Below, piece after piece: positions 1,371 through 5,352 of a stretch of 64,000 nt of DNA; the first letter of the stretch is position 1; the number at the start of each line of letters is the position of its first letter. Both the position numbers and the translations under genes were made by a program. Source of the stretch: Deltaproteobacteria bacterium (GTDB lineage: Bacteria; Myxococcota; Myxococcia; Myxococcales; SZAS-1); assembly GCA_018266075.1 (NCBI GenBank), contig JAFEBB010000035.1:1-64000 (forward strand), in the 5' to 3' direction. The notes beneath the pieces were generated by a model that made no database searches, was not told where the DNA came from, and saw only the letters and a program-made list of their open reading frames with translations.

Positions 1371-2639
1371 ATGAGCGACCGCAAGACCAACACCGGCGGC
1401 CAGAGCGACAGCACGGTGATGCTGCGCGTCGACGACCAGGGTCGGCCCATCGCCGACGAGAGCTCGGGGCCGCAGCCGCAGCCGGGACAGTCCGATTCCA
1501 CCGTGCTGGGCATGCAGATGCCCAACTTCGACGACGACCACCCCACGCAGGACGAAGTGCCCAACCCGATGTCCAACGCGGACAGGCTGCGCGCCAAGCC
1601 GCTGCAGCCCGCGTCGCCGGCCTCGCAGCCGCCCAAGGCCGCGACGGGCGTTCGTCCGGCGCTCTCGAACCCGGGCGTCGGCGGCAGTCAGCCTCCGAAG
1701 CGCGCCACGGGCATGCGGCAGGCGCTGTCGGATCCCGGCGTCGGGGGTTCGCAGCCTCCGAGAGCGGCGACCGGCGTTCGCCCCGCGCTCTCGAATCCGG
1801 GCGTCGGTGGCTCGCAGCCGCCCAGGGCCGCGACGGGCGTTCGTCCCGCGCTGTCGAACCCGGGTGTCGGCGGGAGTCAGCCTCCAAAGCGCGCCACGGG
1901 CATGCGTCAGGCGCTGCCCGAGCCGCCGCCCGAGGGTGCCGGCGAGACGCTGATGCTCAACCCGGACACGCTCCTCAAGGCGGGCCAAGCCGCACAGAAG
2001 GCCGCCGATCCGGGCCCCGAGGCTGCGAACGCCACGGTGATGTTCTCCGCGGTCGACTCCGCTCCAGCCGCGAAGCCCGCGGCGCGCGGAAACCTCGCCG
2101 GAGATGACAAGCCGACCGCCGCGAAGAACCTCGCGCGCGATGACAAGCCCACGGCCTCCAAGCGGCCGCTGCAGGATCTCGTCGACGGCGGCGGTCGCGA
2201 CGAGAACGAGAGCAGCGACGGCGGCCTCGACGAGGGCAACCCCGACACCTTCCGCGGCGAGAACACCGCGCTCGATCACAAAGCCCGGACGACCAACGGC
2301 ATGTACCTGGTGACGTCCGGCCTGATGCTCCTCATTGCCGGCGCGGTCCTCGCGCACTTCATCGCCGGCCGGGTGGCCACACCCAGCCGCGACGAGCTCC
2401 TGCTGCTGTACCCGTTCGGCGCCGGCGGCAAGGTGATGCCCAACGGCCGCACCGCGCCGCCCGCGCGCACGCTGGTCTTCGACATGGTGAAGGCCGACGA
2501 CTGCGACGGCCTCCGCTGCCTCACGTACCACGTGCACTCCGAGGACAACGGCTTCAACTACGAGATGCTCGTCCGCGACAACGACGGCATCTGGGGCCTG
2601 GTGAGCGGCAAGCTCTCGGAGCCGCTCAGCAAGAAGTAG
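1371..2639 (+). CDS. Single-pass membrane protein with 21-residue tandem repeats, paralogue of the preceding gene
   Basis: 422 aa. The ATG at 1371 follows a GAGGGAG ribosome-binding site. The N-terminal ~300 residues are disordered and hold five tandem units of 21 residues (consensus QPPRAATGVRPALSNPGVGG). Thr-containing motifs also recur (DSTVML, DSTVLG, ETLMLN, ATVMFS). One transmembrane helix lies near bases 2301-2370, followed by a C-terminal domain (YPFGAGGKVMPNGRTAPP...) that matches the end of the upstream gene, including its pair of cysteines. No enzyme motif is visible. The T-x-M-L motifs could be phospho-threonine or FHA docking sites (speculation). Confidence 0.8.
   Translation: MSDRKTNTGGQSDSTVMLRVDDQGRPIADESSGPQPQPGQSDSTVLGMQMPNFDDDHPTQDEVPNPMSNADRLRAKPLQPASPASQPPKAATGVRPALSNPGVGGSQPPKRATGMRQALSDPGVGGSQPPRAATGVRPALSNPGVGGSQPPRAATGVRPALSNPGVGGSQPPKRATGMRQALPEPPPEGAGETLMLNPDTLLKAGQAAQKAADPGPEAANATVMFSAVDSAPAAKPAARGNLAGDDKPTAAKNLARDDKPTASKRPLQDLVDGGGRDENESSDGGLDEGNPDTFRGENTALDHKARTTNGMYLVTSGLMLLIAGAVLAHFIAGRVATPSRDELLLLYPFGAGGKVMPNGRTAPPARTLVFDMVKADDCDGLRCLTYHVHSEDNGFNYEMLVRDNDGIWGLVSGKLSEPLSKK
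1626..1916 (+). repeat. Five tandem 63-bp coding repeats
   Basis: Four full 63-bp units (1626-1688, 1689-1751, 1752-1814, 1815-1877) and a 39-bp fifth unit encode alternating QPPxAATGVRPAL and QPPKRATGMRQAL blocks inside the preceding gene. The units are in frame, so copy-number change would keep the protein open. Confidence 0.9.
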
Positions 2640-2680: not shown

Positions 2681-3876
<1,196 letters not shown>

Positions 3877-3880
<4 letters not shown>

Positions 3881-4413
3881 CTTGCGGCCAGCGTCGCTTC
3901 GAGCAGCTTGGCGAGATCGACCTGCTCGCCGGGCGTCGGATCGTGGTGCTCGAAGGTGATCTCGCCGCCCTTGCGGACCACGAGCGCGCCGCCTTGCTGC
4001 CAGGGATCGCCCTGGGGGAGCTTGTTGCGGTGCCCGTTGGCGATGGTCTTCAGCGACGCGCCCCAGCCCGCAGGACTCACCACGTTCCAGACCCCGCGCT
4101 TCATGCCCGCGGCTTCGTGCGCCGCGCGGGTGGGATCGGTCAGCAGCTGCGCGCCGGCAGCGGCGAGGCCGACCTCGTCGTCGAAAGCCTTCGCAAAGTA
4201 GGGCGCGCCGACGCCAATCACCGCCACCTTGGCGCCGTTCTTCGTCAGCTCCGGAATCAGTGGACGCACCTGCGTCGCGAGCTCGCGGCAGTGCATTCAC
4301 CCGAAGTGGCGAACGAAGATGATGACCGCCGGGCCGTCAGCCCAGAGTCCTGCCAGCGGCACCTGGGTGCCGTCCGTCCGGAGCGCGGTCAGCCCATCAG
4401 CGAGCGAGGCCAT
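3877..4413 (-). CDS. PRXL2/SelU-like thioredoxin-fold protein with in-frame TGA: probable selenoprotein (U-x-x-C)
   Basis: Read from the ATG at 4413, the frame gives 38 residues ending FVRHFG, then TGA (4297-4299), then MHCRELA and 139 residues in all to the TAG at 3877. If TGA is read as selenocysteine the product is 178 aa. It matches the AhpC/TSA-like PRXL2 family over its whole length: a [17 protein letters not shown] strand before the redox motif, then CREL, then a KVAVIGVG strand, and a FDDEVGLAA segment. The redox motif is normally C-x-x-C followed by RE; here it is U-x-x-C, the same arrangement as in vertebrate SelU. A hairpin suited to a bacterial SECIS follows. Starting at the ATG at 4296 instead would remove the first beta-strand and half of the active site. 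No selA, selB or selC lies in the window. Role: probably thiol or peroxide redox chemistry (inference). Confidence 0.75.
4263..4276 (-). promoter_or_regulatory. Candidate bacterial SECIS hairpin
   Basis: On the minus strand GACGC-AGGT-GCGTC forms a perfect 5-bp stem with a 4-nt loop. The loop lies 26-29 nt after the TGA and holds a GG, with G as its second base. This fits the known bacterial pattern (short stem, G early in a small apical loop, loop about 16-37 nt after the UGA). An alternative hairpin (CTGC/CGCG arms) closer to the TGA is also possible. Confidence 0.5.
4297..4299 (-). other. Candidate selenocysteine codon (TGA)
   Basis: The TGA falls at the position of the first cysteine of the family's C-x-x-C motif (FVRHFG-U-MHCRE). 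Both sides are in the same reading frame and both resemble the same family, so a one-base frameshift is not needed to explain it. Confidence 0.7.
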
Positions 4414-4431: not shown

Positions 4432-5352
4432 TCAGCCCCAGAGCCGGAGCTGATCCAGCCGAAGCCAGTGCAGCACCCAATCGCCCCAGAGCAGCGCCTG
4501 GAGCGCGCCGAGCACCAGGAACGGCCCGAACGGCACGGCCGTGGGCGGCGGAACCCAGTCTTCTTCTTCGTCGTCGCTCCTGGCTTCGGGCTTTGGCTCG
4601 GCGCGCGGCTCGACGCCCGGTTCGGCGGGCGCTTCGGGCTTCGGCGGCTCGGGCTGCGGTAGCTCGGCCTCCTCCTGGCGGCGGATGCGCAGCAGGATCA
4701 TCCCCAGGATCGCGCCCTGGATCGATGCGAAGAAGAGCGCCACCACCAGCTTCAGCGGGCCAGTCATGGCGCCGATGCTGGCCATGAGCCACGCGTCGCC
4801 GCCGCCCATCGCCTCCTGGCCCGCGATGAGCTCGCCGATCTTTCCGACGATCACGATGAGCGACCAGCCGATCCCCGCGCCGAGCACCGCGCGCAAGATG
4901 CCCTGACGGCCGTCGAGGAGCCCGCTCGCCAGGGTGATCGGAATCAGCGGCAGGGTGATGACCAGCGGAAGCAGGAACGTGTCGAGGTCGATGAGCGCCA
5001 GCGCGATGCCGGCCCACGCGAACACCAGGTGGAAGGCCAGGATGGGCTCGAAGCCGTCGTGCTGGATGAACAGGAACGTGACGACGCCCGTGAGCGCCTC
5101 CACGAGCGGGTAGCGCCAGCTGATGGGCCCGCGGCAGACGCGGCAGCGGCCGCCGAGGAGCAGCCAGGCGAAAACCGGGATGTTGTCGAAGCCGGCGATC
5201 GGCGAACCGCACCGCGGGCAGTGCGAGCCCGGGTGCACGATGCTCTCGCCGCGGGGCACCCGCCAGATCACCACGTTGAGGAACGAGCCGACGACCAGCC
5301 CCAGGACAACCAGGGCCGCGGTGAACAGCACCTCGAACGCAGGAGGAAGCAC
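4432..5352 (-). CDS. pilD: Prepilin peptidase / N-methyltransferase (type IV leader peptidase, A24 family)
   Basis: 306 aa, GTG start. This polytopic inner-membrane aspartyl protease cleaves and methylates type IV pilin or type II secretion pseudopilins. Seen in sequence: an N-terminal GSFLNVVIWRVPRGES signature, a four-cysteine zinc motif (CPRCG...CRVCR) characteristic of the methyltransferase half, and the two catalytic aspartates in ALIDLDTFLLP and MGGGDAWLMASIGA. The usual Lys after the second Asp region is replaced by Trp. A Pro/Glu-rich insert (PEPPKPEAPAEPG...) of about 60 residues precedes the last hydrophobic segment, an uncommon extension. It lies 18 nt upstream of the selenoprotein candidate on the same strand. 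Confidence 0.92.
   Translation of the reverse strand: MLPPAFEVLFTAALVVLGLVVGSFLNVVIWRVPRGESIVHPGSHCPRCGSPIAGFDNIPVFAWLLLGGRCRVCRGPISWRYPLVEALTGVVTFLFIQHDGFEPILAFHLVFAWAGIALALIDLDTFLLPLVITLPLIPITLASGLLDGRQGILRAVLGAGIGWSLIVIVGKIGELIAGQEAMGGGDAWLMASIGAMTGPLKLVVALFFASIQGAILGMILLRIRRQEEAELPQPEPPKPEAPAEPGVEPRAEPKPEARSDDEEEDWVPPPTAVPFGPFLVLGALQALLWGDWVLHWLRLDQLRLWG

Follow-up and report, generated by a model that had tools for sequence, protein, structure and literature searches.

The motif of the selenoprotein SelU is U-x-x-C, and in eukaryotes the SECIS element of SelU is located in the 3' UTR. The PRXL2/SelU proteins presumably belong to the Pfam family PF13911 (AhpC-TSA_2). Prostamide/PGF synthase (PGFS) was placed in the SelU family, where it is called SelU3, and was reported to reduce prostamide H2 (PMC3473315, available text). 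SelL is a Prx-like selenoprotein known in prokaryotes and eukaryotes (PMC2398784, available text); its two selenocysteine (Sec) residues, which are only two residues apart, are inserted with one SECIS element (PMC3316567, available text). According to the accessible portions of PMC9312934 and PMC13188914, prokaryotic Prx-like selenoproteins (PF00578) have the UxxC or UxxU motif, and the AhpC/TSA-like selenoprotein of pfam13911/cd02970 has UxxS.

The related gene described here was found in a window of 64,000 nucleotides, that is, the whole analyzed stretch of contig JAFEBB010000035.1 from a member of the Myxococcota. The gene occupies positions 3877–4413 of the minus strand and is complete as judged from its frame, homology and a fold model (Prx-like thioredoxin fold, PF13911). 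We consider it highly likely that its product is a Prx-like selenoprotein of 178 aa that belongs to the SelL/SelU (PRXL2) type, in which the UGA of codon 39 is decoded as Sec. The protein is similar to SelU/PRXL2 (PRXL2B, PDB 9us9 and 9usa) in its fold and in matching PF13911, and residues C44/C47 of PGFS are aligned with its U39/C42. It differs in that SelU/PRXL2 is eukaryotic and only 22 to 28% identical to it, and in that the candidate SECIS element of the window gene lies in the coding sequence rather than in the 3' UTR. Like SelL, from which the model NF040769 (SelL_rel_redox) takes its name, it is a Prx-like selenoprotein, but SelL has U-x-x-U, whereas the window protein has U39 and C42 and thus a single Sec position. 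The Prx-like selenoproteins of PMC9312934 and PMC13188914 resemble it in superfamily and in the placement of Sec, and as far as the available text of these papers describes that group, the window protein may well fall within it; the pfam13911/cd02970 form given there is UxxS, whereas the window protein has UxxC preceded by RHFG.

The start codon is ATG at 4411–4413 on the minus strand, and the frame runs through 178 codons (4413 to 3880) to the stop codon TAG at 3877–3879. Its sole break is the in-frame TGA of codon 39 (4297–4299) in the context FVRHFG-U-MHCRE, where it replaces the first Cys of RHFG-C-x-x-C. The partner, presumably resolving, residue of the U-x-x-C motif is Cys42 (codon TGC, 4288–4290), identified in the alignments; it is invariant in two of them (8 and 20 sequences), and in three UxxU relatives this position is the second TGA. 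Three profiles from which the window was excluded were used to score each side of the TGA on its own, giving 28.3, 34.6 and 30.2 bits for the preceding 38 residues and 118.7, 126.4 and 127.7 bits for the following 139 residues in the same frame. Since each flank is recognized separately by window-free profiles, the frame represents one gene. The GC content by codon position is also similar on the two sides (0.74/0.53/0.84 before the TGA and 0.73/0.49/0.88 after it). The initial annotation, which had placed a TGA instead of the family's first Cys at these positions and described the frame as open on both sides with the same fold, was right in its coordinates; the strand, which it did not state, is minus, and the agreement of the two independently matching flanks in one frame is beyond chance. 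It had further warned that gene calling would lose 39 codons and half of the active site. Indeed, the mechanical list of open reading frames contains only a 139-aa ORF (3877–4296), which begins at the false start ATG directly following the TGA (4294–4296, minus strand), so that 39 codons, that of the active-site residue among them, are lost.

The neighbors of the gene are a type IV prepilin peptidase (A24) gene upstream (4432–5352, minus strand), which ends 18 nt before the selenoprotein gene, and a convergent thiolase gene (2681–3880, plus strand), whose stop codon overlaps that of the selenoprotein gene by 4 nt. Neither of them was found in 93 relative loci, whose reach beyond the match is about 1 to 5 kb at most, while the window itself, used as a positive control, was detected. 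A conserved gene neighborhood within this reach was thus rejected.

The window protein scores 64.6 bits with PF13911 (gathering cut-off 27) and 30.2 bits with PF00578 (cut-off 26). Its only NCBIfam match is NF040769, the nearest curated bacterial family, which takes in UxxC and UxxU relatives; the match covers nearly the whole length (98.6 bits, E 3e-28) and remains below the curated cut-off of 120 bits. Among 11 chosen relatives nine exceed this cut-off, namely, the UxxC forms L023, L040, L041, L043, L168 and L171 (121.8–146.2 bits) and the UxxU forms L178, L179 and L180 (153.4–182.6 bits), and two fail it, the UxxC form L025 (105.6) and the Cys form L028 (113). In the search of 195 Myxococcota genomes, four exceeded the cut-off. 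The AF2 model, based on 20 sequences, has pLDDT of 94.8 and a thioredoxin fold, in which helix 40–58 directly follows residue 39. Among PDB structures, the sequence is closest to PRXL2B (E 1.9e-11), and so is the fold, in the form of the human prostamide/PGF synthase of entry 9usa (Z 21.2, 158 residues, 1.9 Å), followed in the fold comparison by peroxiredoxins of the Bcp, AhpE and PrxQ types. The predicted structure shows the Prx-like2 thioredoxin fold that is expected of SelU/PRXL2, and its Cys/Sec pair lies where helix 1 begins.

The protein was matched in 18 of 60 genomes including the window's own. At E ≤ 2e-20 this search yielded seven matches besides the window, six with one TGA and one (in G048, a genome from the order to which the window's genome belongs) with Cys; none of the other 59 genomes came from the family to which the window's genome belongs. 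In the NF040769 search of the 195 Myxococcota genomes, 22 of the 23 places scoring at least 89 bits, the window included, have one TGA, and it falls at the aligned residue. One more TGA form is the incomplete gene of G047 (73.8 bits), which brings the number of such Myxococcota genomes to 23; most of the matches listed below 89 bits have no TGA. Taken over both Myxococcota searches, with duplicate loci of one place removed before counting, all 24 distinct TGA genes that have the motif carry their TGA at the U of U-x-x-C. Two loci lack the motif and were not counted, the partial L031 and L029, where U-x-x is absent. In the latter (G057, match 1501–1956, minus strand) the sequence reads RHFG-CREQ, Sec and the next two residues being gone and one Cys left, as after an in-frame deletion of 9 nt.

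Among the matches listed for 396 Acidobacteriota genomes, 59 genomes had a match at 1e-12, and one TGA was present at 18 of the 19 places scoring at least 120 bits, in all 18 cases at the aligned residue; the lone exception (G575) has no TGA. At most nine candidates per genome were scored in this search, so the list may be incomplete. Two TGAs were observed at three more Acidobacteriota places (RHLAULPU, RHFGULLU and RHLAULPU; L178, L179 and L180 from G210, G350 and G374, respectively), where they are 9 nt apart and yield U-x-x-U, the SelL motif. Cys forms were found in Planctomycetota, Dormibacterota, Actinomycetota, Armatimonadota, Bdellovibrionota and other groups by a scan of named genomes, from which the best 80 of 519 loci were taken; the pattern used demands a Cys codon, and these 80 loci are therefore Cys forms by construction. 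Strong homologues thus show either Cys or an in-frame TGA at the position aligned with codon 39, which was the comparison proposed in the initial annotation, and both flanks are conserved, as expected for a bacterial selenoprotein.

Several other genes also contain in-frame TGA codons. The relative L198 (G253) has RHFGUVFP with no Cys three residues on. Remoter AhpC/TSA-type genes of Myxococcota (L211–L217 and L039) have RGFGUPFC, RGFLUPYC, RGHWUPFC, GDWUIYC and similar motifs; one of them, L215, has U-x-x-T.

The candidate bacterial SECIS (bSECIS) hairpin of the window gene, GACGC-AGGU-GCGUC, is located at 4263–4276 on the minus strand and has a 5-bp stem and a loop 25 nt after the UGA. It sits where most close Sec-type relatives have theirs, and the same AGGU loop occurs in L041 and L171. 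The bSECIS rule given in the accessible part of PMC13188914 calls for a loop of 3–9 nt with G in one of its first two positions, a stem of 4–16 bp, a distance of 16–37 nt from the UGA and an energy of at most −7.5 kcal/mol. By this published rule, the 4-nt loop AGGU, the 5-bp stem and the distance of 25 nt fit, whereas the energy falls short, being −7.4 kcal/mol when stretches of 20 or 26 nt are folded and −6.3 kcal/mol for the hairpin alone. Stems were counted as uninterrupted pairs around a loop starting 25–26 nt after the UGA; by this count the 5-bp stem has p=0.014 against synonymous recodings. The energy of the hairpin is no better than in the recodings (z=−0.04), and the 45-nt stretch favors a different fold; the energy of the region thus carried no signal and was abandoned as a test of the window hairpin.

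A hairpin at this place is shared by most of the close Sec-type relatives. For 23 Sec genes (L039 being left out by the score limit) the mean stem at this place is 6.57 bp vs 2.53 bp in synonymous recodings, with at least 5 bp in 20 of 23, whereas 80 Cys genes have 1.91 bp vs 1.59 bp, with at least 5 bp in 6 of 80. Covariation was considered in 17 Sec sequences of one register (16 distinct), with the structure taken from those same sequences. Paired bases occupy 97.3% of the cells, six of seven pairs have changes on both sides, and none of 500 shuffles reached the observed value of any of the five measures, a result that does not amount to a probability given the relatedness of the sequences. 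This set (A3) omits five sequences with another hairpin register (the window, L041, L042, L043 and L060), and the covariation count therefore excludes the window; L039 and L040 were left out of both A2 and A3. A second set was formed from 50 loci, mainly TGA carriers (43 from Acidobacteriota and seven remoter ones from Myxococcota), of which nine were dropped because they did not fit the motif pattern, L206 because the pattern fell at a wrong place, and L170 as a Cys form. In the remaining 39 the mean stem is 3.59 bp vs 1.45 bp in recodings, with at least 5 bp in 17, so that most of the distant relatives do not have the hairpin at that place; in the 21 Acidobacteriota Sec genes scoring above 100 it is 5.33 bp vs 1.33 bp, with at least 5 bp in 16. 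In the UxxU relatives L178, L179 and L180 the loop lies 25 nt after the first UGA and 16 nt after the second, and the stems have 7, 5 and 7 bp. Of two Cys forms close to Sec forms, L028 pairs 1 bp and L170 pairs 3 bp where the hairpin would be; a selA match is present in the genome of the former (G048) and absent from that of the latter (G575).

The genome assembly containing the window (7.84 Mb, 166 contigs, 96.6% complete) encodes the machinery required of a Sec-decoding bacterium, and the search for selA, selB, selC and selD suggested by the initial annotation found all four, each above its cut-off: SelA (558 bits), SelB (300), SelD (385) and tRNA-Sec (selC, 71.8 bits; tRNA-SeC with anticodon tca according to ARAGORN). 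Of 22 AhpC-TSA matches in this genome three have a TGA, the window gene and two probable further selenoprotein genes. These are a peroxiredoxin gene with the motif TPGUTVQGC (L155, G000 C46) and a TlpA-like gene with WLPGUSAC (L156, G000 C9); in each, a GUU-loop hairpin of 8 bp has its loop 17 nt beyond the UGA. Formate dehydrogenase was ruled out as another Sec gene, as none of its nine matches in this genome contains an inner stop. The co-occurrence of selA with Sec forms was dropped as proof of Sec: selA is present in 21 of the 23 Sec-form genomes of Myxococcota (the other two, G047 and G151, are 61% and 87% complete), and it is also present in 150 of all 195 genomes, so that its presence discriminates little. 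In 20 hand-chosen Acidobacteriota genomes it was found in 12 of 12 with Sec forms and in six of eight others.

Taken together, these data suggest the following mechanism. The UGA of codon 39 would be decoded by the genome's own SelA, SelB, SelC and SelD, the decoding being directed by the short coding-sequence hairpin 25 nt on. The attacking selenol would be that of Sec39, which lies at the N-terminal end of helix 1 in the predicted thioredoxin fold, Cys42 would resolve the intermediate as a selenenyl-sulfide, and a thioredoxin-type donor would reduce the latter. Such a redox cycle (Sec39 to Cys42 to thioredoxin) would follow, by analogy, from the fold and the C44/C47 pair of PGFS, which is mutated in entry 9usa. 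The protein is very probably a thioredoxin/peroxiredoxin-type redox enzyme built with selenocysteine at an apparent active-site stop codon, and its likely job is the reduction of a peroxide or disulfide substrate. Given the reported reduction of prostamide H2 by PGFS (PMC3473315, available text), a peroxide or endoperoxide is our best guess for the substrate.

The phylogenetic tree was built for 81 proteins with the two motif positions masked, and it requires 12 changes among UxxC, CxxC and UxxU. The Cys form L028, with its 1 bp at the hairpin's place, is nested in a Sec clade (100/95), as one would expect had Sec been replaced by Cys. The branch nearest to the window consists of three Cys forms (95/89). 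No other observation speaks as strongly for a recent accident, in which a nonsense change or an error of assembly would have turned TGC or TGT into TGA, the protein being, or having been until lately, an ordinary C-x-x-C enzyme; this branching is also the reason why our confidence in Sec, while high, is not higher. Such an event requires one third-position change, the window hairpin is weak, and the 60 genomes contain no second genome of the window's family. We nevertheless regard this explanation as improbable. Where the family has its hairpin, 5 bp are formed in the window (p=0.014), with the loop of L041 and L171, and 2, 4 and 0 bp in the three Cys neighbors, a modest contrast; the remaining frame shows no decay; and the genome has the Sec machinery together with other probable Sec genes. 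Still less credible, to the point of being nearly negligible, is a true stop at the TGA with a restart at the next ATG, which would produce a 139-aa protein devoid of the first active-site residue. That ATG does follow the TGA immediately, but many Sec relatives have no Met after Sec (Ala, Leu, Ile and Val occur besides Met), and the region upstream of the TGA encodes N-terminal strands that are conserved (28 to 35 bits alone) and form part of the predicted fold.

The preferred reading, a Sec-containing enzyme of the SelL/SelU type, leaves the question of its closest kin. The initial annotation, correct in substance, called it the bacterial counterpart of vertebrate SelU, which holds for the fold and the motif, with PRXL2B being the nearest structure by sequence and fold, and extends to these two features only; the label is refined here in that the nearest curated bacterial family is that of the SelL-related redox proteins, UxxU forms included. 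True orthology to vertebrate SelU/PRXL2, as opposed to a SelL-related protein sharing the fold, seems unlikely to us. The best PDB match by both criteria is PRXL2B, and PF13911 is well over its cut-off (64.6 vs 27), but among curated bacterial families SelL_rel_redox gives the best match (98.6 bits, E 3e-28), several relatives pass the cut-off of this family, and it includes UxxU forms.

The distance from the (first) UGA to the loop is 25–26 nt in the family, as opposed to 17 nt in the two other Sec genes of the window's genome. With the two UGAs of the three UxxU forms 9 nt apart, the loop is 16 nt from the second one, so that one hairpin could serve both codons. It is conceivable, and we propose it only tentatively, that the spacing in UxxC forms is a relic of double-Sec decoding or a step towards it, and that the family is a living intermediate between SelU-like (UxxC) and SelL-like (UxxU) proteins. 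UxxC and UxxU Prx-like selenoproteins and the UxxS form of pfam13911/cd02970 are already known from the available text of the cited sources, the family name SelL-related is in use at NCBI, and the window gene is an added member. In the literature searched we found neither this protein nor a selenoprotein survey of Myxococcota; the accessible portions of that literature also yielded no description of UxxC, UxxU and CxxC forms occurring side by side in Myxococcota and Acidobacteriota, or of the 25-nt loop spacing by which one hairpin would come within reach of both UGAs.

The window gene adds a well-supported selenoprotein, one that a mechanical gene caller truncates at the wrong end, with loss of both the catalytic residue and the strands of the N-terminus. 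High-scoring members of the family are mostly Sec-type in Myxococcota and Acidobacteriota, with Cys forms, UxxU forms and one form without U-x-x alongside. These natural variants make it possible to ask what Sec buys over Cys in an enzyme of the PRXL2/SelL type, and whether one hairpin can decode two UGA codons.
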